From positions 1-21,065 of the forward strand of contig RFLL01000273.1 of assembly GCA_003693905.1 (NCBI GenBank): a stretch of DNA of 21,065 nt, written 5' to 3'. This document shows positions 1-13,877 of the stretch, one piece after another. The position numbers and the translations under genes are program-made. The DNA is from Alphaproteobacteria bacterium (GTDB lineage: Bacteria; Pseudomonadota; Alphaproteobacteria; Kiloniellales; J153). The notes under the pieces are model-generated. The model was not told the DNA's origin. It searched no databases and saw nothing but the letters and a program-made list of their open reading frames with translations. Position 1 is the stretch's first letter; the number at the start of each line of letters is the position of its first letter.

Positions 1-395
1 ATCCCTATCTGTTCTCGGTGATCGAGCCGTTCCTGGCCGAGCGCCGCTCGCTGCGGCTCAACCCGGAAGATTTCGTGACCTCGATCCGGCAGCACATCAA
101 GCTCAATCTCGGCGACGCCGCCCCGACCCTGAAGGACGTGGCCGAAAGCCTGGGCATGTCGCCGTGGACCCTGCAACGGCGGCTGAAGGAATACGGCGTC
201 GCCTTCAACGACCTGCTCAAGGCGGCGCGGCAGGAGCTGGCGCTGCGCTATGTCAGTTCCACCGATCTGCCGCTGACCGAGATTGCGCTGTCGCTCGGCT
301 ATTCTGAATTGTCGGCGTTTTCCCGCGCCTTCCGGCTGTGGACCGGGATGTCGCCGCAGCGTTACCGCCGGCTCCACTTCCAAGGTCAGGGCTGA
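1..395 (+). CDS. AraC-family transcriptional regulator, C-terminal part (5' end outside window)
   Basis: The frame is open from base 3 to the TGA at 393-395, giving about 130 visible residues, and it enters from outside the window. The visible part is the AraC DNA-binding domain with two helix-turn-helix units: the first around TLKDVAESLGMSPWTLQRRL, the second around LTEIALSLGYSELSAFSRAF, followed by the family signature TGMSPQRYRR. The ligand-binding N-terminal domain is not visible. The spacing and style recall regulators of the OruR/arabinose-binding-domain group, but that is a guess. The gene lies just upstream of, and co-oriented with, the transporter and microcompartment operons. Paired TGTCAA repeats with 21-bp period in front of both operons fit the binding geometry of this family, so it is the likely local activator responding to the amine substrate. 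Confidence 0.9.
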   Translation, partial: PYLFSVIEPFLAERRSLRLNPEDFVTSIRQHIKLNLGDAAPTLKDVAESLGMSPWTLQRRLKEYGVAFNDLLKAARQELALRYVSSTDLPLTEIALSLGYSELSAFSRAFRLWTGMSPQRYRRLHFQGQG

Positions 396-477
396 GTCGC
401 GCGCCCGGGACGGCGTCACGGAACAAGACGACGCCACGGAAATTGTGCGGCGCAAAACCGGTTCTGCTGCGAAACCG

Positions 478-505
478 TGTCAAACTTGTGTTGCGCGGTG
501 TCAAG
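478..505 (+). promoter_or_regulatory. Candidate AraC-type operator, direct repeat TGTCAA with 21-bp period, before the transporter operon
   Basis: TGTCAAAC begins at 478 and TGTCAAGC begins at 499, exactly 21 bp apart and therefore on the same DNA face two turns apart. The second half-site would overlap a -35 region if GATAGT at 527-532 is the -10, which is the usual class II activator position. The same repeat with the same period recurs at 6640-6667. The rest of the 244-bp gap (396-639) holds no convincing gene. The binding-protein ribosome site (GGAGGGAGG, about 628-636) lies at its end. The binding partner is inferred from the adjacent araC-type gene. Confidence 0.6.
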
Positions 506-639
506 CGCCGGATTCTATTTCCTCCCGATAGTTGAACGCTCGCTCGATATTTGTCTCCGGCGAACGCGTGGCCGGACGTCCGGCACTTGCGGCCGATGGG
601 CGCCCCCCGCGGGTCAACCAAAAAAACGGAGGGAGGAAC

Positions 640-1773
640 ATGGTCAATCGCAGAACCTTTTTGAAGGGCACGGCTGCCGTGGCCGGCCTGGCGGCACTCG
701 CAGGTCCGCGCCGGTCATGGGCCGGGCGCGAGAACGAACTGAACATCCTGTGCTGGGAAGGCTACAACACCGACGACGTTCTCGGCCCGTTCCGGGCCAA
801 GCATCCCGGCAGCCGGGTCCGGGCAGAAAGCGGCACGTCCGATCCGGACATGATCAACAAGCTGCGCGCGGGCGAGGTCAACGTCTGGGATCTGATCAAC
901 GTCAACCAGCCGTGGGCGCGCAACCAGCTTTACCCCGAAGGCCTCATCAAGCCGCTGAACCGGGCCCGCTTCGAGCCCTATTTCGATCTCATGCTGCCCG
1001 AATTCCAGGGGCCGTATCCGCTCGCGCTCGATGAATCGGGCAAGGAGCTGATCGGCATGGTGCAGCGCTTCGGGCCGTTCTCGTTCGTCGTCAACACCGA
1101 CAAGATCTCGCGCCAGATGGCCGAGGATCAGGGCTACAAGCTGTTCCTCGACCCCAAGATGAAGGGGCGCTACGGCGTCCTCACGTACGACAACTGGAAC
1201 ATCATGCACATGTGCATGGCGGCGGATCTGAACCCGTTTGCGCCGCTCGGCGAATCCGATTTCGCCAAGTTCTCCAAGGTGGCCAAGGCGATTTTCGACG
1301 GTGCGAAGCTGTTGACCGACGACCTGGTGGGCATGAACACGGCGCTCATCAACGGCGAGATCGACGCCTATTTCACCGGCGGTACCTATACCGCTTCGCC
1401 GGCACGCTTCGACGGCCAGACGCAGGTCCGCGGCATTACGCCGAAATCCGGGCCCGTCAACGGCAAGGGCGGGGTGGTCTGGGTCGAAGTGACATCGGCC
1501 GTGAACAATCCCGATCCGACGCCGCTGGCCGAGGATTTCCTGGAATTCGTCCAGCAGCCGGAAATCTGCAAGGTCGTCGCCTTTGCCGAGGGTACCTACA
1601 ATCCGGTTACGCAGATGGCCAACCCCAAGGTCATGGCCCTGTTCGACAAGGACGAACTTGACGCGATCCAGTGGGATTCCCTGCCCGAGGAAATGGAGCG
1701 TTCGGTCGATTATCAGATCGTCGTCGATTACAACAGGCTGAACGAACTCTACAATGCGGCCAAACGTTCGTAA
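640..1773 (+). CDS. Tat-exported spermidine/putrescine-type ABC transporter substrate-binding protein
   Basis: This is a 377-residue extracytoplasmic solute-binding protein of the PotD/PotF-like (family 1) class. The ATG at 640 follows a strong GGAGGGAGG site. The N-terminus has a twin-arginine motif NRRTFLK (residues 3-9), a hydrophobic Ala/Gly-rich h-region and a probable cleavage after SWA (residue 28). Mature-protein features include the WEGY segment (39-42), typical of this family, and a W-V-E element (281-283) at the position where polyamine binders usually carry an acidic residue facing the amine. That suggests a cationic amine ligand. It is the first gene of the importer operon directly upstream of aminoalcohol catabolic genes, so the ligand is more likely 1-amino-2-propanol, aminoacetone or a related amine than a polyamine. 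The ligand assignment is inference from context. Confidence 0.85.
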   Translation: MVNRRTFLKGTAAVAGLAALAGPRRSWAGRENELNILCWEGYNTDDVLGPFRAKHPGSRVRAESGTSDPDMINKLRAGEVNVWDLINVNQPWARNQLYPEGLIKPLNRARFEPYFDLMLPEFQGPYPLALDESGKELIGMVQRFGPFSFVVNTDKISRQMAEDQGYKLFLDPKMKGRYGVLTYDNWNIMHMCMAADLNPFAPLGESDFAKFSKVAKAIFDGAKLLTDDLVGMNTALINGEIDAYFTGGTYTASPARFDGQTQVRGITPKSGPVNGKGGVVWVEVTSAVNNPDPTPLAEDFLEFVQQPEICKVVAFAEGTYNPVTQMANPKVMALFDKDELDAIQWDSLPEEMERSVDYQIVVDYNRLNELYNAAKRS

Positions 1774-1794
1774 GGCGTGATGCGGGCGCGGTCC

Positions 1795-1822
1795 GGAACC
1801 GGCGGGGGTACCCGCCGGCTCC
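1795..1822 (+). other. Strong intercistronic hairpin after the binding-protein gene
   Basis: An inverted repeat with arms GGAACCGGCGGG (1795-1806) and CCCGCCGGCTCC (1811-1822) encloses a GGTA loop and has a single mismatch. No T-run follows, so it is unlikely to be a full terminator. Hairpins here, between a binding-protein gene and the rest of an ABC importer operon, commonly protect the upstream message and reduce downstream expression. That role is inferred from the position. Confidence 0.55.
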
Positions 1823-1897
1823 GGCCGCGGCGACGCAACGCAAGTGCGCGGTTGACTTCGATTGTCACATAACAGCGGTATTGGAGCGCGCGGCACC

Positions 1898-2978
1898 ATG
1901 GCGCCCCCGGTCGTTCTGCGTCTGGAAAACGTTACCAAACGCTTCGGTTTGTTCACGGCGCTGCACGACATCAATCTCGACATTTATGACGGCGAGTTTC
2001 TGACCATCGTCGGGCCGTCGGGCAGCGGCAAGACGACGATGATCCGACTTCTGGTCGGAATGGATGAACCGAGCGAAGGTCTCATCTACCTCGACGGCAA
2101 GGTCATAAATCGGGTGCCCGCGAACAAGCGCCCGACCTGTATGGTGTTTCAATCTCTGGCCCTGTTTCCGCACCGCACGGTCGGCCAGAACATCGAGTTT
2201 CCGCTCAAGATACGCGGCGTCGATGAACGCCGCCGCCGGGCGCGGGCCAACGAGCTGCTCGACCTGCTGCATCTGCCGCGCGACTACTACGGCAAGGGCG
2301 TGATGCAGTGTTCGGGCGGCGAGCGCCAGCGTGTCGCACTGGCCCGGGCGCTGGCCTTCGATCCGGAAATCCTATTCTTCGACGAGCCGCTGTCGGCGCT
2401 CGACTATCGTCTGCGCAAGGCGCTGGAGAAGGAGCTGAAGCAGCTTCACCGGCAGACCGGCAAGACCTTCGTCTACATCACCCATTCCCTTGAAGAGGCG
2501 ATGGTGATGAGCGATCGCATCGCCATCATGCGCACCGGTTCGATCGCCCAGGTCGGCACCCGACGAAATCTATGCCAGCCCGAAAAGCCGCTTCGTCGCC
2601 GAATTCATGGGCGAGGTCAACCTGTTCGATGTCGAGGGCCTGGGCGACGGGCGGTTTCGGGCGCTCGGCGTGGATATGTCGGTCAACGGCGCCCGTCTCG
2701 ATATCGCCGAAGGCGAGCGCGCCACCTTGATGGTGCGGCCGGAATTCGCCCGTTTCCTGACTCCCGGGGATGCCGCCGACTGCGTTCTCAAAGGCCGGAT
2801 GGGTAACGATTTCTCGCTCGGATCGCGAATGCAGTACGAGGTCGATGTCGGCGGTGGTCGCGTGATCACGGTGGAGAAGCTGCGTGAGGATCGCTTCGCC
2901 GGATCCTTTGGCGACGACGTTCTGATCGGCTGGGACATCGACAGCGTGCATTTGATTCGTGAGGTGGAACGGAGCTGA
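1898..2978 (+). CDS. PotA-type ABC importer ATPase, with a frameshift near 2561
   Basis: This is the nucleotide-binding subunit of the importer. The ATG at 1898 has a GGAG at 1883-1886; an upstream TTG at 1862 is less likely. Residues are: Walker A GPSGSGKTT (39-47), Q-loop Q85, signature CSGGERQ (138-144, Cys replacing the usual Leu), Walker B LFFDEP (159-164) and switch His196. The first frame is normal through VGT (residue 221). After base 2560 it continues out of register to a stop at 2806. The family-typical sequence DEIYASPKSRFVAEFMGE resumes in another frame from 2562 and runs through the C-terminal TOBE region to TGA 2976-2978. Joined, the product is about 359 residues, the normal PotA length. 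The break needs one extra or two missing bases at the CCC around 2559-2561. It is either a real lesion or a sequencing error. The intact flanking genes favour error or very recent loss. Confidence 0.85.
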
Positions 2979-2979
2979 C

Positions 2980-3834
2980 ATGGATCGCATCGAGGAAAGA
3001 CAGGGTCTGCTCAGCGCGCTGCCGCTGAGTGTCCTGATGGTGCTGATCTTCGTTGCGCCGCTGATCGTGGTTGCGGTGTTTTCAATCATGCCGCCGCGCG
3101 TGTTCGACGTGCTTCACATGCCGAGCTTCGAGAACTACCGCATCTTCTTCACCCAGGGCTATTACCGCTCGCTGGGATGGGCGCTGGGCATGGCGGCGAT
3201 GGCCACGGTAACGCTGTTCGTCATCTGCTATCCGCTCGCCTATGCGATGGCCAAGATTTTCAAGAAGTTCACCCTGATCATCACCATCGCCGTCGTGGTG
3301 ACACTGTTCGTGTCCGAGAACATCCGTCTGTTCGGCTGGGTCCTGACCCTTATGAAAGGAGGTCTGATAAGCGGATACCTGCGCACCTATGCCGGTATTG
3401 ATATCGACGGCTGGCTGTACAACGTGCCGGTGATCGTCTTCGGCCTCGTCTACGTCTATTTTCCGTTCATGCTGTTTCCGCTGGTGCAGGGAATCTCGAT
3501 GGTGCCGGAAGAGGTGCGCCAGGCGGCCAGCGACCTCGGTGCTTCGCGCACGCGGATCTTTTTCGAGATCGACTTGCCGCTGGCGATGCCGGGCATCGTT
3601 GTCGGTTCGTTGCTGACGTTCGTGCTGGCCGCCGGTGCGATGGCGGAATCGAAACTGCTCGGCGGTCAGGCGGTGATCGTCATGGCCGACGAAATCGAGG
3701 CCGCCTTCACCTTCGGTCAGAACTGGTCGCTGGGCTCTGCCCTGGCGATGATTCTCATTCTGATCATCGGATCACTGGCGTTCTTTGCCCTGTCGCGGGT
3801 CGACCTCGACGGCATCATGGGACGGCGGGGGTAA
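2980..3834 (+). CDS. ABC importer permease subunit 1 (PotB-like)
   Basis: This 284-residue inner-membrane permease belongs to the binding-protein-dependent transport family. Its ATG at 2980 follows the ATPase stop by one base, so an alternative start at 2959 inside the ATPase end is less likely. There are about six hydrophobic spans: roughly residues 13-36, 66-88, 98-112, 150-170, 205-224 and 252-272. The cytoplasmic EAA loop, EEVRQAASDLGASRTRIFFE (177-196), ends in the conserved LPLAMPGI and is the contact site for the ATPase. It pairs with the next permease to form the translocation channel, and with the Tat-exported binding protein forms one importer. Substrate specificity cannot be read from this subunit. 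Confidence 0.88.
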   Translation: MDRIEERQGLLSALPLSVLMVLIFVAPLIVVAVFSIMPPRVFDVLHMPSFENYRIFFTQGYYRSLGWALGMAAMATVTLFVICYPLAYAMAKIFKKFTLIITIAVVVTLFVSENIRLFGWVLTLMKGGLISGYLRTYAGIDIDGWLYNVPVIVFGLVYVYFPFMLFPLVQGISMVPEEVRQAASDLGASRTRIFFEIDLPLAMPGIVVGSLLTFVLAAGAMAESKLLGGQAVIVMADEIEAAFTFGQNWSLGSALAMILILIIGSLAFFALSRVDLDGIMGRRG

Positions 3835-3838
3835 GGCC

Positions 3839-4657
3839 ATGCATCATCCCCGGTCCATTCGCATCGCCCTTTTATGTTACGGCGTGACCCTGATCGTCTT
3901 TCTCTATCTGCCGCTGGCGGCGATCACATTCGCATCGTTTTCCAAGGCACGTTATCTGACGTTCCCGATCCGTCGCTATACCTTCCAGTGGTATGAGAAG
4001 GCCTTCGCGTCACCGACGGTGGCTGATCTTCTGACGACGTCATTGAAAATCGCCATTGTCGTCACCGTGATCTCCATGGTGGTCGGGTTTTTCGGTGCTT
4101 TGGCGTTTGCGCGCTACCGGTGGCGCTTTCGCGGCGCATTTCAGAAATTCATCCTGTTGCCGATCTTCTTTCCCCAGACCGTGCTCGGCCTGGCGCTGCT
4201 GATGTGGTTCAACGCGGTCGGGATCATCCCGACCTGGAAGACCGCCATTGTTGCGCATCTAGTCTGGATCGCGCCGATCGCCACTCTGATCGTGGCCATT
4301 CGCGCCTATTCCTTCGACCCTGCGCTGGAGGAGGCGGCGCGCGACATGGGGGCCAGCACCTGGCAGGTTCTGCGTGAGGTTACGCTGCCGCTGCTGTGGC
4401 CCGGAATCGTATCGGCAGGGTTGTTCGCGTTTCTTCTGTCGTGGGGCAATTTCCCGCTGTCCCTGTTCACGACCGGCGCCGATCTGACCCTGCCGGAATG
4501 GCTCTACGCCAAGATGGTCTCGGGCTATTCGCCGCTGGTGCCGGCCGTGGGCACGTTGAGCGTTGTCGGCTCGGTCATTCTGATCGGCCTTGGCACCGCG
4601 TTCGTGGTGTGGAGCAACCGCCGCCGTGCCGCCATGAGTGCCGGTGCGGAGGACTGA
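3839..4657 (+). CDS. ABC importer permease subunit 2 (PotC-like)
   Basis: This is a 272-residue second permease of the importer, starting five bases after the first permease stop. Its N-terminal span (about 10-33) is followed by membrane spans near 68-90, 104-124, 136-155, 188-210 and 235-258. The EAA loop reads EEAARDMGASTWQVLREV (164-181) and then TLPLLWPGI, the canonical contact motif for the ATPase. Order and spacing (binding protein, ATPase, permease, permease) match spermidine/putrescine-type operons. The operon then runs on into the SDR gene after 65 bp, linking uptake to catabolism. Confidence 0.88.
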   Translation: MHHPRSIRIALLCYGVTLIVFLYLPLAAITFASFSKARYLTFPIRRYTFQWYEKAFASPTVADLLTTSLKIAIVVTVISMVVGFFGALAFARYRWRFRGAFQKFILLPIFFPQTVLGLALLMWFNAVGIIPTWKTAIVAHLVWIAPIATLIVAIRAYSFDPALEEAARDMGASTWQVLREVTLPLLWPGIVSAGLFAFLLSWGNFPLSLFTTGADLTLPEWLYAKMVSGYSPLVPAVGTLSVVGSVILIGLGTAFVVWSNRRRAAMSAGAED

Positions 4658-4722
4658 GCACCGATGACGGGTTGCAACAAAAGAGCGCAGCACTTCAATC
4701 GGAATATCGGGAGGACAGAAAC

Positions 4723-5502
4723 ATGCTGAGTTCGATCAAAGGCCGCAGCGTCATCGTGACCGGGGCCTCCAAGGGCATCGGCAAAGGCATTGCCCGCGTG
4801 TTCGCCAAACACGGTGCCAACGTCATGATCGTCGCCCGCGGCGAGGAGGCGGCGGCCGGAACGGTCGAGGAAATCAAGGCCGGCGGTGGCAGTGCCGCTT
4901 ATTGTCTGGCCGACGTCTCGCAGTGGGACGACGTGCAGCGGATGGTCGCCAGGACCGAAGAAGCCTTCGGCGGTCTCGACATCCTGTGTTCCAACGCCGG
5001 CATCTTTCCGCAGGCCAAGATCCTCGACATGGCGCCGGAGGACTGGGATACGGTTCTCGACACCAACCTGAAAAGCACCTTCCTGTCGGTCAAGGCGGCG
5101 GTGCCGGCGATGCGCAAACGCGGCAAAGGGCGGGTCGTCATCACCTCGTCGATCACCGGGCCGATCACCGGCTATCCCGGCTGGACCCACTACGGCGCCT
5201 CCAAGGCCGGGCAGCTCGGCTTCATCCGCACCGCGGCCATCGAGCTGGCCAAATACAACATCACCGTCAACGCGGTGCTGCCCGGCAACATCATGACCGA
5301 GGGGCTTCAGGGCCTGGGCCAGGACTATCTCGACACCATGGCGGCTTCGATTCCGCTCAAGCGCCTGGGCACGGTCGAGGACATCGGCAATACCGCCTTG
5401 TTCCTGGCCTCGGACGAAGCGGGCTACATCACCGGCCAGACGATCGTCGTCGACGGAGGGCAGATCCTGCCCGAATCCCTGGAGGCATTGCAGGAAGCCT
5501 GA
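4723..5502 (+). CDS. Short-chain dehydrogenase, probable NADP-dependent 1-amino-2-propanol dehydrogenase / aminoacetone reductase
   Basis: This is a 259-residue classical SDR; the ATG at 4723 is preceded by GGGAGG (4709-4714). Seen directly: cofactor motif TGASKGIG (13-20), Arg39 after strand 2 (favours NADP), D64, NAG (91-93) and catalytic S143-Y157-K161. From memory of the published Mycobacterium smegmatis RMM 1-amino-2-propanol dehydrogenase, substrate contacts are Phe95, Thr145, Trp154, Leu195 and a C-terminal Glu251 from a neighbouring subunit. This protein has F95, T145, W154, L195 and E251 at exactly those numbers, so I consider it an orthologue. It would interconvert aminoacetone and (S)-1-amino-2-propanol, connecting threonine/aminoacetone metabolism to the kinase and lyase downstream. 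The short C-terminal helix ESLEALQEA shows no obvious encapsulation extension. Confidence 0.85.
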   Translation: MLSSIKGRSVIVTGASKGIGKGIARVFAKHGANVMIVARGEEAAAGTVEEIKAGGGSAAYCLADVSQWDDVQRMVARTEEAFGGLDILCSNAGIFPQAKILDMAPEDWDTVLDTNLKSTFLSVKAAVPAMRKRGKGRVVITSSITGPITGYPGWTHYGASKAGQLGFIRTAAIELAKYNITVNAVLPGNIMTEGLQGLGQDYLDTMAASIPLKRLGTVEDIGNTALFLASDEAGYITGQTIVVDGGQILPESLEALQEA

Positions 5503-5520
5503 TTCCAGACCCGGCACCGC

Positions 5521-5548
5521 GCGCGGGGGGCGCTCGCCGGCCCCGCGC
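5521..5548 (+). other. GC-rich hairpin between SDR and kinase genes
   Basis: Arms GCGCGGGG (5521-5528) and CCCCGCGC (5541-5548) form an 8-bp stem with a 12-base loop in the 92-bp gap. No T-run follows. It may serve as a processing or attenuation element within the operon, but nothing in the sequence decides this. Confidence 0.35.
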
Positions 5549-5594
5549 CCGATGCCGGCATCCATGAACAACGCCCGCAACGGCGGAGGGTCGT

Positions 5595-6608
5595 ATGAGC
5601 ACCGATACGATGACGATGAGCCACGATGCGCTGGTCGCCACTCTCGCCCGCCTGGCGAACGCCTCGCTGTCCCTGTGGGATCTCGAGGCGGGGGCGACGG
5701 CGCGCCTGATCAACCTGTCGGAGAACGCGACCTATCTGGTCGAGACCCCGTCCGGTGGCAGGACGATTCTGCGCATCCACCGCGAAGGATATCATTCCAG
5801 GCGCGCCATCGAGTGCGAGCTGGCCTGGCTTGAGGCGTTGCGCACCGAAGGCGGTGTCATCACGCCGCACGCGATCCCCGGGCGCGACGGCGAAATCATC
5901 CAGATCGGGCGCATCGACGCTCTGCCCACCCCTCGGCACATGGTGCTGTTCGAGTTCATCGAAGGCGAGGAGCCGGACGAGAAGGCGCATGACCTGCGCC
6001 AGCCGTTCATCCGCCTGGGGGAGATCACCGCCAGGATCCACCGCCATTCCGAAACCTGGGCGCGCCCGCAGCCGTTCGAGCGGCTGACCTGGGATTACGA
6101 GCATATCCTGGGGGCGCATCCCTACTGGGGTGACTGGCGTGCGGCCCCGGCGATGGATCCGGCACGCGAGGAAATCCTGACCCGGCAGCAGGATACCATT
6201 CGCCGCCGTCTCGAATCCTACGGCATGGGGCCGCACCGTTACGGTCTCATCCATGCCGACCTGCGGCTGGCCAACCTGCTCGTGAGCGGCGATTCGACCC
6301 GGGTCATCGACTTCGACGACTGCGGTTTCGGCTGGTACCTCTACGACTTGGCGACCGCCTTTTCGTTCTTCGAGGACAACCCCCAGGTACCGGAGCTGAC
6401 CCGTTACTGGCTCGAAGGCTATCTGCCGGTGCGCAACCTCGATCAGGCCGACATCGACGAGATCCCGACCTTCATCATGTTGCGGCGCATGGCCCTGCTG
6501 GCGTGGATCGGCTCTCACTCCGAAACCGAGCTCGCGCAGGAAATGGGGCCGGAATTTACCCGCGTGTCCTGCGAACTGGCGGAGGATTACCTGACCAGGT
6601 TTGGTTAA
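5595..6608 (+). CDS. APH/choline-kinase-fold phosphotransferase, probable aminoalcohol O-kinase
   Basis: This 337-residue protein starts at the ATG at 5595 after GGAGGG (5585-5590). It has the aminoglycoside-phosphotransferase/homoserine-kinase-II fold. The catalytic loop is HADLRLANLL (H220, catalytic D222, metal-binding N227) and the metal-binding segment is VIDFDD (D239). Family members phosphorylate hydroxyls of small aminated molecules. Lying between an aminoalcohol dehydrogenase and a class III PLP enzyme in a microcompartment locus, it probably uses ATP to make 1-amino-2-propanol O-phosphate, the substrate of the lyase. Ethanolamine is the main alternative. The N-terminal stretch around DALVATLARLANASL is amphipathic and could aid shell targeting, but this is weak. 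It is the last gene of the first transcription unit, ending shortly before the second operator. Confidence 0.8.
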   Translation: MSTDTMTMSHDALVATLARLANASLSLWDLEAGATARLINLSENATYLVETPSGGRTILRIHREGYHSRRAIECELAWLEALRTEGGVITPHAIPGRDGEIIQIGRIDALPTPRHMVLFEFIEGEEPDEKAHDLRQPFIRLGEITARIHRHSETWARPQPFERLTWDYEHILGAHPYWGDWRAAPAMDPAREEILTRQQDTIRRRLESYGMGPHRYGLIHADLRLANLLVSGDSTRVIDFDDCGFGWYLYDLATAFSFFEDNPQVPELTRYWLEGYLPVRNLDQADIDEIPTFIMLRRMALLAWIGSHSETELAQEMGPEFTRVSCELAEDYLTRFG

Positions 6609-6639
6609 TAAATCCGGCCGACCGGGACCGGTGATGCGC

Positions 6640-6667
6640 TGTCAAGTCGACCCGGCCGGGTGTCAAG
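6640..6667 (+). promoter_or_regulatory. Second candidate AraC-type operator, TGTCAAG direct repeat with 21-bp period, before the shell operon
   Basis: TGTCAAGT starts at 6640 and TGTCAAGC at 6661, again exactly 21 bp apart. A weak -10 candidate CATGAT lies at 6688-6693, 27 bp from the second repeat start (28 bp at the first operator). The aminotransferase start at 6717 and its GAGGAG site (6704-6709) follow. The site sits in the 108-bp gap between kinase and aminotransferase genes and implies an internal promoter for the enzyme/shell genes under the same regulator. Confidence 0.6.
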
Positions 6668-6716
6668 CCGCCCGCGGTCCCGGCCGGCATGATGACAGGA
6701 CCTGAGGAGACCTGTC

Positions 6717-7988
6717 GTGAGCGTTGAAAAGCTGGAATTTCTGGAGCGTTCCAAGACCTTCTGGAACCCGGGTAAGACCCAGGCGTGGCAGGACATGGGG
6801 GTCGATCTCGTCATTGACCGCCGCGAGGGTTATTTCCTGTACGACATGGACGGGCGGCGGTTGATCGACGTTCATCTGAACGGCGGCACCTACAATATCG
6901 GCCACCGCCATCCCGAACTGATCGAGGTGCTGAACACCGCCACCCAGCGCTTCGACATGGGCAACCATCACTTCCCCTCGCTGGCCCGCACTGCGCTGGC
7001 CGAGGCGCTGGCCGCCTGCACGCCGGGCGATCTGCAATACACGATCTACGGCTCCGGCGGTGGCGAGGCGATCGACATCGCCATCAAGACCGCCCGCAAC
7101 GCGATGAAAAAGCGCAAGATCGTCTCGATCATCAAGGCCTATCACGGGCACACCGGTCTCGCCGTCAAGGCGGGCGATTCCCGGTTCTCCAAGCTGTTTC
7201 TGTCCGAAGACACGAAGGGCGAATTCATCCAGGTCCCCTTCAACGATCTGAACGCGATGGAAGATGCGCTGAAGGGGCGCGATGTCGCCGCCGTGCTGAT
7301 GGAGACGATCCCCGCCACCTACGGTTTTCCCATGCCGCACGAGGGCTATCTGCCCGCGGTCAAGAAGCTGTGCGAAAGGTACGATGCGCTTTACATCGCC
7401 GACGAGGTGCAGACCGGGTTGATGCGCACCGGCGAGATGTGGGGCATCACCAGATACGGCGTCGTGCCCGACCTTCTGGTCACCGGCAAGGGCATTTCCG
7501 GCGGCATGTATCCGATCGCCTGCACCGTGGTGTCGAAGGAACGCGCCGGCTGGCTGTCGCAGGACGGGTTCGGGCACATGTCGACCATGGGCGGGGCCGA
7601 GCTCGGCTGTATCGTCGCCCTCAAGGTGCTGGAAATCGTCCAGCGCCCCGAGGTCGCCTCGATGGTGCGTTACATCTCCAACTTCATCCGCGCCGGCCTC
7701 GACGAGATCATGGCGCTTTATCCCGACTTCTTCGTCGGCATCCGCCAGAACGGCGTCATCATGGGGCTGGAATTCGATCATCCCGAAGGCGCCAAGCCGG
7801 TCATGAAGCATCTCTACCGCAACGGCGTGTGGGCGATCTTCTCGACCCTCGATCCGAGGGTTCTCCAGTTCAAGCCGGGCATTCTGATGACCCAGGCGCT
7901 GTCGGAGGAATTGCTCCAGCGCGTCGAGGTGGCGATCGGGCAGGCGCGCCGGGAAGTCTTCGGCACCGCCAGACGCAAGAGTGCGTGA
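6717..7988 (+). CDS. Class III aminotransferase-fold PLP enzyme, probable aminoalcohol-phosphate phospho-lyase
   Basis: This 423-residue protein uses a GTG start at 6717, with GAGGAG seven bases upstream. Fold-type I class III features are: phosphate-binding GSGGGEA (112-118), the DEVQTG motif (229-234, D229 contacting the PLP ring nitrogen) and Schiff-base Lys258 in TGKGISGG. The length is normal. Class III proteins include true transaminases and ethanolamine-phosphate / 1-amino-2-propanol-phosphate phospho-lyases. The kinase immediately before it and the aldehyde dehydrogenase whose start overlaps its stop favour the lyase, releasing propionaldehyde, ammonia and phosphate. This would be the aldehyde-producing signature enzyme of the compartment. 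A plain transaminase cannot be excluded from motifs alone. No clear encapsulation peptide is seen at either end. Confidence 0.82.
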   Translation: MSVEKLEFLERSKTFWNPGKTQAWQDMGVDLVIDRREGYFLYDMDGRRLIDVHLNGGTYNIGHRHPELIEVLNTATQRFDMGNHHFPSLARTALAEALAACTPGDLQYTIYGSGGGEAIDIAIKTARNAMKKRKIVSIIKAYHGHTGLAVKAGDSRFSKLFLSEDTKGEFIQVPFNDLNAMEDALKGRDVAAVLMETIPATYGFPMPHEGYLPAVKKLCERYDALYIADEVQTGLMRTGEMWGITRYGVVPDLLVTGKGISGGMYPIACTVVSKERAGWLSQDGFGHMSTMGGAELGCIVALKVLEIVQRPEVASMVRYISNFIRAGLDEIMALYPDFFVGIRQNGVIMGLEFDHPEGAKPVMKHLYRNGVWAIFSTLDPRVLQFKPGILMTQALSEELLQRVEVAIGQARREVFGTARRKSA

Positions 7989-9595
7989 TGGACGCCGCGA
8001 TCCGCAATCTCGTCGATATCTCGCACACGCTGGCTGCGCGCCGCGCCCGGGCCGAGCTGATGCTGGAGCGTGCGCGGTGGGCGGCGGAGGTGTTTCGTCG
8101 CTACGACCGCGATACCACCCAGGCGATCGCCGCGGCGGTCGCCCGCGTCGCCTTCGACAAGGCCGGCGAATACGCCGAATGGGCTGTCAAGGAAACCGGG
8201 TTCGGCGTTGCCGCCCACAAGAAGATCAAGAACGAGCTGTCGAGCGTGCCGCTGGTCGAGCATTACCGCGACTGGGATTTCGTCAATCCGCGTATCGACG
8301 AGGTGGCCAAGATCGTCGAGGTGCCGCGCCCGGCCGGCGTCGTCTTTGCCCTGGTCCCCTCGACCAATCCGATCGCGACCGTCTATTTCAAAGTGCTGTC
8401 TGCCCTGATGACGCGCAATGCGGTGGTGATGAGCCCGCATCCGGCGGCCCGCGAATGCTGCGTCGATGCGGCGCGCACACTGGCCCGGGCGGCGGAGAAG
8501 GCCGGCGCGCCGGAAGCCGTCGTTCAGGTTGTCGAGCAGCCCGACATCCCTCTGATCGAGGAATTCATGCGTTCGGAAAAGACCGATGTCATTCTGGCCA
8601 CCGGCGGGACGGCTATGGTGCGGGCAGCCTATTCCTCGACCAATCCGGCCATCGGCGTCGGCCCCGGCAATGCACCGGTCTTCGTTGACGGCTCGGCCAA
8701 CCTGAAACTGGCGGCGCAGCGCATCGTCGAGTCGAAGTCCTTCGACAATTCGATCCTGTGCACCAACGAATCGGTTCTGATCACGCTTGCTGACATCGCA
8801 AAGCAGTTGCGGCGCGAACTGGAACGCGCCGGCGCCTACGTCTGCTCCGGGGATGAGCGCGACGCCCTGCGCCGCTATCTCTTTCACGAGCGCGGCTTCA
8901 ATGTTGAAGCCATCGGTCGCGATGCGACCTGGATTGCTGCCCAGGCCGGGCTGCGGGTGCCGCCGAAAACCAGAATCCTGGTGACGCCGATCGACCTGAT
9001 CGGGGTCGACGAGCCGCTGTCGAAGGAAAAGCTGTGCCCGGTGCTCGGCCTTTATGTTGCCCATGGCCGGGCACAGGCATTTTCGCAGGCCCGCGCCATG
9101 CTGCGGATGGCCGGGGCCGGACATTCCGCCGCCATCCACGCCAACGAGACCCAGGTCATCATGGATTATTCGGCCGCCGTCGAGGTCTACCGGGTCGTCG
9201 TCAACGCCCCGTGCAGCCAGGGGGCGGCGGGCTTTGCCACCAACCTGTCGCCGTCGTTCACCATCGGTACCGGTTTCTTCGGCCGCTCCTCGGTGGGAGA
9301 GAACATCGGGCCGCAGCATCTCGTGAACTGGACCCGGATCGCCTATCACAAGGATCCGGGGGAGGTGATGGGAGACTTTTCCGCGACCCGGCTCAGGTTT
9401 GCCGGCCCTCTGCCGGAGGCGCCGGCGGACGGGGTGCCGGGCAGCTCGCGCGCGCCGGCCGGTCGTCCCCCCGTGTCGGCGGCGCGCCGGGCGCCCGGTG
9501 ATGGTACGGGTGGAACCATCATTTCGGGGGCCGAGCTGCGCGAAGAGATTCGCCGCATCATCATCGAAGAACTGCGTGCCGCGCTCAAAGAGTAG
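7988..9595 (+). CDS. CoA-acylating aldehyde dehydrogenase with C-terminal encapsulation helix
   Basis: This 535-residue protein has an ATG that overlaps the aminotransferase stop (TGATG), indicating translational coupling. The ALDH core (to about residue 464) resembles the PduP/EutE/AdhE class, with catalytic Cys258 in SILCTNES and a GVGPGNAP segment before it. The reaction is aldehyde + CoA + NAD giving acyl-CoA, here most likely propionaldehyde to propionyl-CoA. After the core comes a Pro/Ala/Arg-rich linker (about 465-509) and a terminal amphipathic helix with core LREEIRRIIIEELRAAL (residues 517-533). This linker-plus-helix layout is the classic microcompartment encapsulation peptide, and it explains the extra length over a usual 460-470-residue enzyme. 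The shell genes begin four bases after its stop codon. Confidence 0.92.
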   Translation: MDAAIRNLVDISHTLAARRARAELMLERARWAAEVFRRYDRDTTQAIAAAVARVAFDKAGEYAEWAVKETGFGVAAHKKIKNELSSVPLVEHYRDWDFVNPRIDEVAKIVEVPRPAGVVFALVPSTNPIATVYFKVLSALMTRNAVVMSPHPAARECCVDAARTLARAAEKAGAPEAVVQVVEQPDIPLIEEFMRSEKTDVILATGGTAMVRAAYSSTNPAIGVGPGNAPVFVDGSANLKLAAQRIVESKSFDNSILCTNESVLITLADIAKQLRRELERAGAYVCSGDERDALRRYLFHERGFNVEAIGRDATWIAAQAGLRVPPKTRILVTPIDLIGVDEPLSKEKLCPVLGLYVAHGRAQAFSQARAMLRMAGAGHSAAIHANETQVIMDYSAAVEVYRVVVNAPCSQGAAGFATNLSPSFTIGTGFFGRSSVGENIGPQHLVNWTRIAYHKDPGEVMGDFSATRLRFAGPLPEAPADGVPGSSRAPAGRPPVSAARRAPGDGTGGTIISGAELREEIRRIIIEELRAALKE

Positions 9596-9598
9596 GCC

Positions 9599-10210
9599 AT
9601 GGCGGAACTGCGCTCTTTCATTTTCATCGACCAGTTGCAGCCGCAAACCCTGTGCTATATTGCATCGTGGATGCGCGGGTCGTTGCCGCGCGCCAACATG
9701 GCGGCGCAGATCATCGAGGTCGCCCCCGGCCTCGATATCGAGGGCCTGACCGATATCGCGCTCAAGCATGCCGATGTGAAGGCCGGCATTCTGGTGGTCG
9801 AACGCCAGTTCGGCTATCTCGAATTCCATTCCCGGTCGACCGCAGAGGTGAAAGCCTCGGCCGAAGCGGTGCTCGATGCCCTTGGCGCGCGGCCCGAAGA
9901 TGTGACCACGCCCACCATTCTTGCCTCGAAGATCATCACCCGGATCGATCACCAGCATGCGTTTCTGATCAATCGCAACAAGCTGGGCTCGATGATCCTG
10001 GGCGGGGAATCGCTGTTCGTGCTGGAAATGCGCCCGGCGTCCTACGCCATCATCGCCGCCAACGAGGCGGAGAAGGCGGCCAATATCAAGATCGTCGACT
10101 ACCGCATGATCGGGGCCAACGGTCGGGTCTACATCTCCGGCGACGAGGCCGAGGTCCGCAATGCGCGCGGCGCCGCCGAAGAGGCGTTGCGCGCACTCGG
10201 GGCGCAGTAG
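9599..10210 (+). CDS. BMC-T shell protein, CsoS1D/CcmP-like tandem-domain trimer (first copy)
   Basis: This is a 203-residue shell protein made of two fused BMC domains. Domain 1 spans about 5-95 and starts RSFIFIDQLQPQ; domain 2 spans about 100-203 and includes DHQHAFLINRNKLGSMILGGESLFVLE and ANEAEKAANIKI. The layout and motifs fit the CsoS1D/CcmP group, whose trimers can stack face to face and carry a large gated pore. The VERQFG segment (E68, R69) matches the Glu-Arg pair known to gate CsoS1D. It would form pseudohexameric facet tiles and a conduit for larger metabolites such as NAD(P), ATP or CoA. It lies directly after the ALDH. The paralogue at 11442 shares the fold, but the two differ clearly in domain 1. 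Confidence 0.92.
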   Translation: MAELRSFIFIDQLQPQTLCYIASWMRGSLPRANMAAQIIEVAPGLDIEGLTDIALKHADVKAGILVVERQFGYLEFHSRSTAEVKASAEAVLDALGARPEDVTTPTILASKIITRIDHQHAFLINRNKLGSMILGGESLFVLEMRPASYAIIAANEAEKAANIKIVDYRMIGANGRVYISGDEAEVRNARGAAEEALRALGAQ

Positions 10211-10225
10211 GGGGAGGCGGCTCGC

Positions 10226-10699
10226 GTGAACCCCGTCAATCCGGCGCTGCTGCGGTCATTGATACGCGAAGCCCTGGCCGAGGAGATCGGTCGTTTGCGC
10301 GGATCATTGGGCGGCGCCTTCGCGCCGACCACACCACGGCCGCAGGTCCGCGAGGAGGTGGTGTCGATCCGCTCCGATGCCGAGCTCATGGCCTTCGTGC
10401 ACCGGCTTCTCGAGCTCGCCAAGGACGGGCGCACCCGCCAGGAAATCGAATCCGGCCGCTGGGTCTTTCGCCTTCACGCCAGCGGCGTGGGGGCCGCTTC
10501 ACCGCTGCCATCAGGCCGTCCGGGCGCGCCGGCGGGCGGTGCAGTGGCGCAGTTCACGGCCGGCCTCGTTTCGGAACGGCAGATCGACGCCCTGCCGCCG
10601 GGGACGAGCAGGCTCGTCATCGGCCGGCGCGTGCGCTTTACGCCGCTGGCCCGCGACCGCATCCGCCAGCGCGGGATCGAGATCGAGAGGATGGAGTGA
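10226..10699 (+). CDS. Small BMC-associated protein with N-terminal encapsulation-like helix; function unknown
   Basis: This 157-residue protein starts at GTG 10226 with GGGGAGG at 10211-10217. It is encoded between shell genes, and its stop overlaps the BMC-P start (ATGA). I do not recognise a named family. The N-terminus is a strong amphipathic helix, LLRSLIREALAEEIGRL (about 9-25), similar in pattern to the ALDH C-terminal helix. A Gly/Pro/Ala linker and a helical middle follow (about 49-86, containing LMAFVHRLLELAKDG). A second low-complexity Gly/Ala/Pro linker leads to a C-terminal unit ending GRRVRFTPLARDRIRQRGIE. A TPLARD...RGI tail of this sort recurs, from memory, in accessory proteins of other microcompartments. 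No catalytic motif is seen. A scaffold linking cargo to shell is the simplest idea, but it is inference. Confidence 0.75.
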   Translation: MNPVNPALLRSLIREALAEEIGRLRGSLGGAFAPTTPRPQVREEVVSIRSDAELMAFVHRLLELAKDGRTRQEIESGRWVFRLHASGVGAASPLPSGRPGAPAGGAVAQFTAGLVSERQIDALPPGTSRLVIGRRVRFTPLARDRIRQRGIEIERME

Positions 10700-10956
10700 T
10701 GGTGAGAGGACGCGTCAAAGGACGCTACTGGGCGACCAAGCGGGTGGCGACGCTGCCCCAGGGCGCGCTGCTGGAGGTCGAACTGGAGAACGGATCGCAC
10801 ATCATCGCCTTCGACCCGCTCGGTTGCGGCGACGGCGAGCAGGTGCTGATCACCCAGGGTTCGGTTGCGGCCGGATATTTCGACAAGATCAGGGCGCCGG
10901 TCGATGCCCTGATCATCGGGTCGTTGGACGAGGTTCCCCCGTCGCGCAGGCGCTGA
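10699..10956 (+). CDS. BMC-P pentamer vertex protein (EutN/CcmL family)
   Basis: This is an 85-residue protein, the typical length. The N-terminal pattern MVRGRVKGRYWATKRVATL, followed by LLEVEL, AFDPLGCGDGEQVLITQGS (38-56) and the closing VDALIIGSLD, matches EutN/CcmL beta-barrel pentamers. They cap the vertices of the icosahedral shell and are needed for closure. The ATG overlaps the stop of the preceding gene. It is the only pentamer gene visible in the window, whereas RMM-type loci can have one or more. Confidence 0.95.
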   Translation: MVRGRVKGRYWATKRVATLPQGALLEVELENGSHIIAFDPLGCGDGEQVLITQGSVAAGYFDKIRAPVDALIIGSLDEVPPSRRR

Positions 10957-11019
10957 GGGCACCAGCCGGTCGGGGTTGGGGTATTTGGGACGAACGAGAC
11001 AGGAATCGGAGGATAAGCC

Positions 11020-11310
11020 ATGTCCAATCAGGCAATCGGCATGATCGAAACCAAGGGCTACGTGGCGGCGTTGGCCGCTGCGGATGCCATGGTCAAGGCG
11101 GCGAACGTGACCATCATCGGCCGTGAAGAGGTCGGTGACGGCCTCGTCTCGGTCATCATCAATGGCGATGTCGGCGCGGTGAAGGCGGCGACCGAAGCCG
11201 GGGCGGAAACCGCCAACCAGATCGGCGAGCTGGTTTCGGTCCATGTCATCCCGCGGCCGCATCAGGATCTTGGCAAGCACTTCGCTTCGGCGGTGTCCAA
11301 GTCCAGGTAG
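11020..11310 (+). CDS. BMC-H hexameric shell protein
   Basis: This 96-residue single Pfam-BMC-domain protein starts at ATG 11020 after GGAGG (11008-11012). It opens with the canonical AIGMIETKGYVAALAAADAM, then VKAANVTIIG, VGAVKAATEAG and VSVHVIPRPH. It forms the hexagonal facet tiles that are the main shell component. The pore-loop region reads REEVGDG (35-41). The loop at this place in many BMC-H proteins is a small neutral IGSG/VGGG type, so the Asp at position 40 would place acidic charge at the hexamer axis, which could favour cationic amines. That selectivity is inference. The 63-bp gap before it holds only its ribosome-binding site. Confidence 0.96.
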   Translation: MSNQAIGMIETKGYVAALAAADAMVKAANVTIIGREEVGDGLVSVIINGDVGAVKAATEAGAETANQIGELVSVHVIPRPHQDLGKHFASAVSKSR

Positions 11311-11441
11311 GCCGGCACGGACGCGTGCGGATTCGTCGCGCTGGGGCCGATTCGCCTTTGCGAAGGCGTGTCCGCCCGGCGGGCATGCCCGGCGGCGGGG
11401 ATGCCGATCGCAACGTTTCCGGCCATGTGTGAGGAGCGAGG
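11311..11441 (+). other. 131-bp gap between BMC-H and second BMC-T genes, with hairpins
   Basis: There is no gene here. A small hairpin CGCCTT-TGCG-AAGGCG sits at 11353-11368 and is followed by a GC-palindromic stretch around GGGCATGCCC (about 11380-11389). No T-run is present. It may lower or partly terminate transcription after the abundantly needed BMC-H gene, so that the minor BMC-T is made at a lower level. GAGGAGCGAGG (about 11431-11441) is the ribosome site of the next gene. Confidence 0.4.
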
Positions 11442-12074
11442 ATGACCGAGCTTCGGGTGTATCTGCCGATCGAGGATCTGCAACCGCAGTTTGCGGCCTA
11501 TCTGACGACGCCGATGCGCGCGCGCGGCTACCCGCCGTTCGAGGGCGAACACAGCCTGATCATCGAGGTCGCCCCGGCGCTGGCCATTCACCGCATCGTC
11601 GATCTCGCGCTCAAGGCCGCACCGGACATGGAGCCGGGCATCCTCTTCACCGAGCGGCAGTTCGGCCTGCTTGAGCTGCATGCGCGCGATCGCGGCGTCA
11701 TTGACGCCGCCGGTGCGGCGATTCTGAAAGGCATCGGGGCCAAGGCCAGCGACCAGTTGGCGCCGGTGACACTGTTCAACGACATCATCGAAAACATTGC
11801 CGATCAGCACGCGATCATCCTCGACCGGATGCGCAACGCCTCGATGATTCTGCCCGGACAGTCGCTGCTGCTCTACGAGATGGCGCCGGCGCTGTTCGCC
11901 GCCGTGGCCGCCAACGAGGCCGAAAAGGCCGCGCCCGCGGCGACCATCGTCGACATCCAGATGATGGGCGCTTCGGGGCGCGTGTTCATGGCCGGCACCA
12001 CCGACGATCTGAGGCGGGCCCAGGACAGGATCGCCCGCACCCTGGCTGCCATCAAAGGCCGCAAGGCCGGGTAA
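11442..12074 (+). CDS. BMC-T shell protein, CsoS1D/CcmP-like tandem-domain trimer (second copy)
   Basis: This 210-residue double BMC-domain protein starts at ATG 11442 with GAGGAGCGAGG just upstream. It opens ELRVYLPIEDLQPQFAAYL and has the same landmarks as the first BMC-T: IIEVAPALAIHRIVDLALKA, TERQFG (E71, R72 as the possible pore-gating pair), DQHAIILDRMRNASMILPGQ and ANEAEKAAPAATIVD. Relative to the first copy it carries an altered domain-1 insertion (RARGYPPFEGEH). It is the last gene of the shell operon, separated by a 131-bp hairpin-containing gap. Two different gated trimers could pass different large cofactors or form mixed double layers. That is inference. Confidence 0.92.
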   Translation: MTELRVYLPIEDLQPQFAAYLTTPMRARGYPPFEGEHSLIIEVAPALAIHRIVDLALKAAPDMEPGILFTERQFGLLELHARDRGVIDAAGAAILKGIGAKASDQLAPVTLFNDIIENIADQHAIILDRMRNASMILPGQSLLLYEMAPALFAAVAANEAEKAAPAATIVDIQMMGASGRVFMAGTTDDLRRAQDRIARTLAAIKGRKAG

Positions 12075-12088
12075 GCGGGTCGCCGGAG

Positions 12089-12138
12089 GCCCCTTCGTTC
12101 CGTCATCCCGCGAAAGCGTCTCCTGCCTCCGAAGGGGC
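12089..12138. terminator. Possible bidirectional terminator hairpin between shell operon and phaC
   Basis: GCCCCTTCG (12089-12097) pairs with CGAAGGGGC (12130-12138). An alternative pairing, GGAGGC (12085-12090) with GCCTCC (12124-12129), is nested nearby. It sits in the short gap between the convergent BMC-T and phaC genes and touches the phaC stop codon. The loop is long (about 32 bases) and the T-tract is poor (CTATTCTT), so the assignment is tentative. Confidence 0.4.
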
Positions 12139-13877
12139 TATTCTTCAAGAACGTAGGTGCCGGGGGCGTCACACAGCGGCGGGTATCCGGCCTTCGCCCT
12201 GCCCATGCCAGGGGGCTTGGTGCGGGCGCCCGAATGCCTGGCCAGCCATGCCTGCCACGTCGGCCACCACGAGCCTTCGCGCGGCTTGGTTCTGGCAACC
12301 CATTCATCCGGCGCAACGTAAAGGTCGCCTTCGCGCTTGGTAGCGACCCGGTGGTGCCGGCGCGGGTGTCCCGGCTCGCTGATGATGCCGGCGTTGTGCC
12401 CGCCGCTGGTCAGCAGGAAGGTGACGTCGGTATCGGACAGCAGATTGATCTTGTAGACGGATTTCCATGGCGCAACGTGGTCTTTTTCGGCACCAACCGC
12501 AAAGATCGGAACGTGGATGTCGCTCAGCGCCACCGGTTTGTCGCCGACGGTGTAGCGCCCTTCGGCCAGATCGTTGTTCAGGAACAGTTTGCGCAGATAT
12601 TCCGAATGCATGCGGTACGGCATGCGGGTGGCATCGGCGTTCCAGGCCATGAGATCGGTCATCGGCCGGCGTTCGCCGATCAGGTAGTCGTGAACCATCC
12701 GCGACCAGATCAGGTCGTTGGAGCGCAGAAGCTGGAAGGCGCCGGCCATCTGCTTGGTATCCAGATATCCCTGATCCCACATCAGGTCTTCGAGGTAGGA
12801 AACCTGGCTCTGGTCGATGAACAGCATCAGCTCGCCGGCTTCGGTAAAATCGGTCTGGGCGGCAAAAAGGGTCACCGATTTCAGCCAGTCCTTGCCGTCG
12901 CGGCCCAGCGTGGCGGCGGCAATCGCCAGCAATGTGCCGCCGATGCAGTAGCCGACAGTGTGGACCCGGCGATCGGGAATGATCGTCCGGACCGCTTCCA
13001 GGGCCTGCATGGCGCCGCGTTCTAGATAATCGTCCATGCCGAGGTCGCGGTCCTCCTCGGTCGGGTTCTTCCATGAGATCATGAAGACGGTGTGCCCCTG
13101 GTCGACCAGGTATTTGACCAGGGAATTGTGGGGCGAAAGATCGAGGATGTAATACTTCATGATCCACGCCGGGATGATCAGTACCGGCTCCGGATAAACG
13201 GTTCTGGTCGTGGGCGCGTACTGGATCAGTTCGATCAGCCGGTTGCGGTAGATCACCTTGCCCGGCGTGATTGCCACGTTCTTGCCGACCTGGAAATTCT
13301 CGGCCCCCACGGGCGGCTTCTGAAGCACCGTACGTTCCCAGTCTTCAAGAAAATTCTGGAAACCGTTGACGAGGTTCATCCCTCCTTTCCTCATCGTGAC
13401 CGCAAGAACTTCGGGATTGGTCAGCGGAAAGTTGGAGGGTGAAAAGAGGTCGAGCATCTGCCGGGCGCAGAAAGAGACCACGTCCTGGTGATGATCGCTG
13501 ACTCCTTCGATGCCGACGGTGGCGTTGTACCACCATTGTTGAGTCAGCAGAAACGCCTGATACCAGAACAGGAACGGCGGCTGTTGCCATTCCGGTGCCT
13601 GGAAGCGCCGGTCCTGCGGCAGGGGGTCGATGCAGGGGCCTTCCTGCTTGCCGGCGGCCAAGCGTTCCAGGTAGGCGCCGAATTTCACGCTTTTGCGCCA
13701 GGCCTTGTGAACCAGTTCACCTTGTTTGCCCGGTGAATTGGCAAGATGGACGGCCCAGTCGAAATAGGCGAGCATCAGCGAAGCAGGTGAAATTCCCGCC
13801 GTCAGACGGCCCTGCCAGGCATGCAGAAAGCGATCGATGGGGTAGACGTGCTCCTTTCGTACGGGCGGTTCGCTCAT
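12138..13877 (-). CDS. phaC: Class I poly(3-hydroxyalkanoate) synthase
   Basis: This 579-residue protein starts at ATG 13877 with a GGAGGGGG site just upstream; the frame stays open further upstream, but that start is unsupported. The N-terminal PhaC domain (about 20-200) is followed by an alpha/beta hydrolase-fold catalytic domain. The lipase-like box is GYCIGG with catalytic Cys311, and the partners are Asp466 (AEKDHVAPW) and His494 (GGHNAG). The C-terminal segment GSWWPTWQAWL...APGTYVLEE is typical of alphaproteobacterial type I enzymes. It polymerises hydroxyacyl-CoA into PHA granules in the cytosol. It is convergent with the microcompartment operon, whose inferred product, propionyl-CoA, is a precursor for hydroxyvalerate units. 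Functional coupling is speculative. A palindrome (13951-13962) and an FNR-type box (14083-14096) lie upstream. Confidence 0.93.
   Translation of the reverse strand: MSEPPVRKEHVYPIDRFLHAWQGRLTAGISPASLMLAYFDWAVHLANSPGKQGELVHKAWRKSVKFGAYLERLAAGKQEGPCIDPLPQDRRFQAPEWQQPPFLFWYQAFLLTQQWWYNATVGIEGVSDHHQDVVSFCARQMLDLFSPSNFPLTNPEVLAVTMRKGGMNLVNGFQNFLEDWERTVLQKPPVGAENFQVGKNVAITPGKVIYRNRLIELIQYAPTTRTVYPEPVLIIPAWIMKYYILDLSPHNSLVKYLVDQGHTVFMISWKNPTEEDRDLGMDDYLERGAMQALEAVRTIIPDRRVHTVGYCIGGTLLAIAAATLGRDGKDWLKSVTLFAAQTDFTEAGELMLFIDQSQVSYLEDLMWDQGYLDTKQMAGAFQLLRSNDLIWSRMVHDYLIGERRPMTDLMAWNADATRMPYRMHSEYLRKLFLNNDLAEGRYTVGDKPVALSDIHVPIFAVGAEKDHVAPWKSVYKINLLSDTDVTFLLTSGGHNAGIISEPGHPRRHHRVATKREGDLYVAPDEWVARTKPREGSWWPTWQAWLARHSGARTKPPGMGRAKAGYPPLCDAPGTYVLEE

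Follow-up and report, generated by a model that had tools for sequence, protein, structure and literature searches.

A stretch of 21,065 nucleotides, here called the window, lies at the start of contig RFLL01000273.1 (assembly GCA_003693905.1; Alphaproteobacteria, Kiloniellales, J153) and carries on its forward strand, at positions 3-12074, a bacterial microcompartment (BMC) locus with ABC importer genes at its upstream end. This raises the question of what such an organelle would process in an alphaproteobacterium and how its substrate would be supplied, as the RMM microcompartments that it resembles are usually described as actinobacterial. The sequence comparisons make it quite probable that the locus encodes a proteobacterial RMM/AAUM/Aut microcompartment, in which an amine taken up by the ABC importer would be converted by a kinase and a phospho-lyase and finally yield propionyl-CoA.

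The assignment to the RMM class, which would handle aminoacetone and 1-amino-2-propanol, is well supported by the predicted shell proteins and enzymes. The shell set comprises two BMC-T, one BMC-H and one BMC-P, related to MSM0271, MSM0272, MSM0273 and MSM0275. Indeed, in comparisons with solved structures the BMC-T at 9599-10210 matched MSM0275 with 313 bits (runner-up 171), the BMC-T at 11442-12074, on which Pfam is silent, nevertheless matched MSM0271 with 285 bits (runner-up 146), and the BMC-P at 10699-10956 matched MSM0273 with 80 bits (runner-up 27), while the BMC-H at 11020-11310 gave a tandem BMC-H fusion first (175 bits) and MSM0272 second (147 bits). These genes are accompanied by a short-chain dehydrogenase/reductase (SDR, 4723-5502), an APH-fold kinase (5595-6608), a class III pyridoxal phosphate (PLP) enzyme (6717-7988) and an acylating-type aldehyde dehydrogenase (ALDH, 7988-9595) of the EutE/AdhE family, bearing a C-terminal tail that resembles an encapsulation peptide. 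The kinase scores 320 bits against structure 6ef6, which we take to be the Mycobacterium smegmatis RMM aminopropanol kinase, and only 58 bits against the runner-up, an amicoumacin kinase; the SDR scores 319 and 318 bits against 6ci8 and 6ci9, both deposited as 3-oxoacyl-ACP reductase and presumably entries of the M. smegmatis 1-amino-2-propanol dehydrogenase. The two are thus annotated as putative 1-amino-2-propanol kinase and putative 1-amino-2-propanol dehydrogenase/aminoacetone reductase, and the PLP enzyme as putative aminopropanol-phosphate phospho-lyase. The catalytic residues examined are intact, as are those of the compared locus proteins of suitable length: the HxDxxxxN and DFD motifs in 68/68 kinases (67 of 70 locus rows plus the window), the catalytic Cys in 72/72 ALDHs (71 of 83 plus the window) and the catalytic Tyr and Lys in 58/58 SDRs (57 of 60 plus the window).

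The ALDH phylogeny agrees with this picture, as the window and 62 other RMM rows split from the six remaining ones with an SH-aLRT support of 95. These six were the Escherichia coli EutE and AdhE, a rhizobial AdhE, an EUT ALDH and two choline-type GRM ALDHs; the 69-row tree is a quick one with long branches and without a PduP row, from which 11 loci were thinned by name and rows outside 480-600 residues excluded. The shell and ALDH proteins therefore fall on the RMM side when compared with other BMC types, and the preliminary description, which had placed the locus in the RMM class and not with Pdu or Eut, was right in this respect. No diol dehydratase, given by Axen 2014 as the mark of RMM2, is found among the genes identified at 3-12074, a region that begins where the contig does and leaves the sequence upstream of base 1 out of view, and neither a diol dehydratase nor a PTAC or alcohol dehydrogenase was identified in the window. 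Gene content and order are repeated in relatives, with a syntenic core in 80 loci from named genomes, so that the arrangement is not a product of chance. One of these loci, L019 of Fodinicurvata fenggangensis DSM 21160, has the gene set of the window.

The named-genome scan, whose locus counts rest on the best 80 of 295 relatives, assigns 50 loci to Pseudomonadota and 27 to Actinomycetota by record title, and one each to Fidelibacterota, Campylobacterota and Spirochaetota; these last three records are metagenome-assembled genomes (MAGs) and may be misbinned. Both the actinobacterial and the other loci share a core of PLP enzyme, ALDH, BMC-T, linker, BMC-P, BMC-H and BMC-T, and around this fixed core the predicted uptake and sensing genes differ by phylum. 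When the comparison is restricted to loci with enough flank (30 non-actinobacterial ones with at least 9 kb upstream, and 15 actinobacterial ones with 5 kb downstream in addition to 9 kb upstream), at least two importer genes are present in 26/30 non-actinobacterial but in 0/15 actinobacterial loci, for which Fisher's test gives p = 1e-8, in a sample where related genomes are not independent and two of the 30 (L026 and L027) are near identical. Over all loci regardless of flank, the counts are 33/53 and 0/27. A relative of an AraC regulator (E up to 1e-15) follows the same division, 25/30 against 0/15, with matches mostly 40-60% identical, and the opposite is observed for an APC-type amino-acid permease and a GntR regulator (0/30 against 15/15); each of these three queries was itself drawn from a counted locus (L024, L059 and L077). 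The association of an amino-acid permease with actinobacterial RMM loci, which the preliminary description had mentioned, is borne out by these counts. Neither such a permease nor a GntR regulator is among the genes identified in the window; what stands at its very start (3-398) is an AraC-family regulator of which only a C-terminal helix-turn-helix fragment is left, the contig start having removed the remainder. This fragment reaches 133.5 of the 250 bits of the NCBIfam equivalog cut-off for QhpR, a cut-off set for the whole protein, and the three RMM-linked AraC relatives tested all exceed it.

Sampling by taxonomy leads to the same view of the importer. Queried with the BMC-T encoded at 9599, and with the window genome counted each time, 6/58 relatives (E limit 1e-40), 7/61 genomes of the order (1e-60) and 8/385 genomes of the class (1e-75) were positive. 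In the class sample, importer and SDR genes are adjacent in six of the seven other RMM loci, and the seventh (L142) meets its contig edge just beyond the PLP gene. Of these genomes, three apparently also belong to the named set, as do three of the six importer-bearing loci. The importer is a recurrent feature of non-actinobacterial RMM loci and not a peculiarity of the window genome.

In the proposed route, the Pot-type ABC importer would bring in a small cationic amine, be it 1-amino-2-propanol, aminoacetone or a close relative, that the AraC regulator would sense. The SDR would interconvert aminoacetone and 1-amino-2-propanol, the kinase would turn the latter into 1-amino-2-propanol O-phosphate and, within the shell, the PLP enzyme would eliminate phosphate and ammonia to leave propionaldehyde, from which the encapsulated ALDH would form propionyl-CoA that exits to a cytosolic methylmalonyl-CoA route. 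Among five RMM genomes tested, two of which are less than 90% complete, the MM_CoA_mutase family is present in all and PTAC in none, suggesting that propionyl-CoA would be usable directly. In PMC8156839, the conversion of aminoacetone to propionyl-CoA is credited to Mallette and Kimber.

Other explanations have to be weighed against this route, and the most direct concerns the PLP enzyme, which could act as an aminotransferase, converting 1-amino-2-propanol to lactaldehyde or aminoacetone to methylglyoxal, with the ALDH making an acyl-CoA and the kinase acting later. An aminotransferase acting on aminoacetone was discussed by Axen 2014 (PMC4207490), and Ravcheev and Thiele 2019 (PMC6620236) put forward a lactaldehyde route with an NADH loop between dehydrogenase and ALDH. 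The enzyme does have the class III fold, and its closest solved structures are aminotransferases. However, while Lys258 is in place, Gln384 occupies the position of an Arg found in PatA, ArgD and GabT, and Gln is found there in 60/60 RMM enzymes (the window plus 59 of 71 rows selected by length, near-duplicates retained), with an invariant Lys two residues further along. This Arg, which presumably binds the carboxylate of the oxo acid in class III aminotransferases, is kept in dialkylglycine decarboxylase, and is replaced by Lys, again with a basic residue two positions on, in the phospholyase 5g4i, in the phospho-lyase 6tor and in the PLP protein of one Vibrio locus (L040), where a protein of the phospholyase type takes the place of the usual RMM enzyme and has 5g4i as its best match (362 bits). 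Kinase and PLP genes also occur together in 28/30 non-actinobacterial and 15/15 actinobacterial loci with enough flank. The loss of the Arg in 60/60 enzymes and the phospholyase relative in Vibrio thus favour the putative kinase and phospho-lyase route to propionaldehyde and then propionyl-CoA, and make transamination quite unlikely. A further likeness involves NCBIfam PRK06149/PRK06148, which are long fused proteins: the window kinase weakly matches their N-terminal part, and the Vibrio PLP protein their C-terminal part.

The same organelle might, on the other hand, serve a different main substrate in its proteobacterial form, such as ethanolamine, another amino alcohol or a breakdown product of polyamines. 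The solute-binding protein of the window (640-1773), which carries a Tat signal, has the PotD/PotF fold typical of polyamine binding, an annotated ethanolamine permease adjoins the RMM locus of Rhodococcus jostii, and the importer family is found elsewhere in partly amine-like contexts: copies in RMM-free genomes have within about 7 kb a gene for a 2OG-Fe dioxygenase, an isochorismatase-fold protein, a PuuD-like peptidase C26, a glutamine-synthetase-like protein or an FGGY kinase, the PuuD-like and glutamine-synthetase-like ones scoring under their NCBIfam cut-offs. Against this, the SDR is kept in 28/30 loci, which fits a secondary alcohol or a ketone and not ethanolamine. The pocket, aligned at 18% identity, may also speak against a polyamine-like ligand, as PotF residues D39, D247, E185 and D278 align with G41, G248, N187 and E283 of the window protein, and counterparts of the first three are missing in 34/34 aligned rows. 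We therefore regard a different main substrate as unlikely, and the importer may serve the scavenging of dilute amines, with 1-amino-2-propanol or aminoacetone as putative ligand. It could also be argued that the importer is merely a neighbour serving some other metabolism. With a limit of E up to 1e-80, the binding protein is detected in 24/61 genomes of the order, in one at only 42% identity; 17/54 genomes without RMM have it, and some RMM loci have no importer nearby. Yet it is present in 7/7 RMM genomes of the order, the window genome included (Fisher p 0.0008), and importer genes adjoin RMM in the 26/30 named loci and in 6/6 class-sample loci with upstream sequence, three loci being in both sets. 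The link between importer and RMM is thus statistical as well as positional, and an accidental placement is very improbable. The preliminary description had called this the RMM's own polyamine-type importer; that it adjoins RMM and is far more frequent in RMM genomes holds, whereas the family as such is not dedicated to RMM.

A phylogeny of the binding proteins (34 rows, namely 33 of 36 locus rows selected by length plus the window; midpoint root) bears on the same issue. A branch with support 100/99 separates the window and 15 other RMM-linked rows from 13 rows labelled as non-RMM and from five RMM rows that lie in two separate places. As labelled, the tree requires at least three changes and RMM-linked members occupy three separate clades, a distribution that also speaks against an accidental neighbourhood and that may reflect repeated recruitment or loss. 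At least one of the labels is wrong: L119 (genome G005) adjoins RMM, because its sequence stops within a PLP gene (residues 5-67, 71% identity). Three other rows (L123-L125) end too early for an RMM or non-RMM judgement.

Several observations nevertheless count against the proposed microcompartment and its route. The importer family occurs in genomes that lack RMM, it is not beside RMM in four of the 30 non-actinobacterial loci (L022, L024, L040 and L051), and the comparison of its binding pocket with PotF is based on an alignment at 18% identity. An AraC match is missing in five of these 30 loci and only 33% identical in L026 and L027. Among solved structures, those closest to the PLP enzyme are putrescine aminotransferases, at 179 bits, and the phospho-lyase 6tor comes only after them, at 115 bits. 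Finally, the SDR has an Arg39 of the NADP type, conserved in 58/58 rows, which hints at the use of NADP(H), in which case the published NADH loop with the ALDH may not close.

In respect to described systems, the closest is the RMM1/AAUM microcompartment of M. smegmatis and Rhodococcus, described by Axen 2014 and reportedly by Mallette and Kimber. It shares with the window the four shell paralogs, SDR, kinase, PLP enzyme, tailed ALDH and linker; the window differs by having an ABC importer and not an APC-type permease, and an AraC regulator (QhpR-type in relatives) and not a GntR one, and proteobacterial kinase and SDR genes lie mostly upstream of the shell genes, whereas the actinobacterial ones lie downstream. 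The Aut microcompartment of Ravcheev and Thiele 2019 (PMC6620236) likewise shares the shell and enzyme set and had already been reported from Proteobacteria, in two genomes by their count, one of them named. Its proteobacterial cluster has a permease that groups with actinobacterial ones and no kinase, unlike the loci studied here (ABC importer in 26/30, kinase in 28/30). RMM2 is named in Paracoccus yeei by PMC8156839, and RMM2 outliers are mentioned by Sutter 2021 (PMC8217296). A spread of RMM to Proteobacteria from Actinobacteria has also been suggested in the literature. The importer itself departs from PotABCD/PotFGHI in its Tat signal, its location in an RMM cluster and the lack of several polyamine-binding acids of PotF. 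The PLP enzyme has in common with the ethanolamine-phosphate phospho-lyase family (6tor, 5g4i) the class III fold, the absence of the Arg and the basic residue two positions on, but belongs to a different subfamily, with Gln in place of Lys. No description of an ABC importer or an AraC regulator with RMM was found in the searched part of the literature, which covers few subscription papers and no supplementary data. The importer and regulator variant is well supported by gene content and is what would be new, RMM in Proteobacteria being already known.

A broader proposal can be made tentatively, namely that the proteobacterial RMM is a distinct and widespread variant with a fixed core, in which the whole uptake and sensing module would have been replaced by a high-affinity amino-alcohol/aminoketone importer of the Pot family and a QhpR-type amine sensor; importer clades would have joined RMM more than once, and the phospho-lyase would have been replaced at least once, in Vibrio, by another subfamily. 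The large proteobacterial set, keeping the core while importer and regulator differ by phylum, is of practical use, as what the importer binds and what induces the AraC regulator are directly measurable and offer a handle on which substrate RMM takes, and the conserved loss of the aminotransferase Arg lets one assay choose between the published transamination and phospho-lyase pathways. If true, periplasmic high-affinity uptake feeding a microcompartment would point to scavenging in dilute habitats.

All the genes named in the preliminary description were found on the forward strand by family and structure-sequence searches. However, its view of a complete RMM locus has to be qualified, as the AraC gene is truncated and the ABC ATPase is frameshifted. 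The first part of this PotA-like protein (1862-2560) contains the ABC domain, the frame changes at about 2560-2590, and the TOBE domain follows in another frame in the second part (2561-2978, with a listed open reading frame at 2607-2978). In 4/4 compared relatives the ATPase is a single open reading frame of 357-383 residues, and the frame change may be a sequencing error or the mark of a decaying gene. The two permeases, PotB-like (2959-3834) and PotC-like (3839-4657), follow, and the gaps from the first of them onward range from -1 to 131 bases, which suggests one or few transcripts. The linker gene (10226-10699) encodes an N-terminal helix like an encapsulation peptide, modelled at residues 6-28, and a C-terminal stretch with a weak PduM-like match under the Pfam cut-off; no confident fold match was obtained for its body. 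ALDH tails and linker N-termini have a common pattern like LRxxIRxxLxEEL, and both proteins would dock to the shell through the same kind of helix. The host assembly, which is 59.6% complete and comprises 455 contigs with a total of 2.33 Mb, has two matches to the BMC-domain family PF00936, both inside the RMM locus. Facing the operon on the opposite strand, at 12138-13994, is an open reading frame named by eye as polyhydroxyalkanoate-synthase-like, which is unmatched in other RMM loci.

Some of the surveyed loci have particularities of their own. The Vibrio locus (L040, Vibrio sp. S9_S30, 1-15437) combines RMM shell and ALDH genes with the phospholyase-type PLP gene, an amidase, and a different ABC transporter in place of the usual Pot importer. 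A fragment at its edge resembles a kinase and matches GntI weakly, and above the thresholds of the synteny scan the locus has no match to the SDR, kinase or PLP enzyme of the window type. In the RMM locus L024, where the Pot importer is missing, there is an extra BMC-H gene upstream (4922-5203) and an amidase gene downstream (12529-13965). Beside the RMM genes of L042, the interval 8265-12621 encodes a protein combining oxidoreductase and GcvT parts and has two genes identified by eye, one for a DeoR-like regulator and the other a second APH-like gene. The RMM loci L032, L033 and L035 come from MAGs labelled Neomarinimicrobiota, Gammaproteobacteria and Sulfurimonas. Over 7-14 kb, the DNA of L032 is 98.8-99.9% identical to that of the other two, with one additional stretch at 89% between L032 and L035; these loci may correspond to the RMM2 outliers by phylum for which Sutter 2021 (PMC8217296) invokes phage transfer, or alternatively to a binning error. 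Two RMM loci, L066 and L075, come from MAGs labelled Bifidobacterium breve, labels that seem doubtful; L075 was excluded from the ALDH tree and L066 clusters there with other Actinobacteria. On pRHL2 of R. jostii RHA1 (L099, 12409-17898), the set of BMC-T, linker, BMC-P and BMC-H genes is doubled in tandem, with identical protein accessions.

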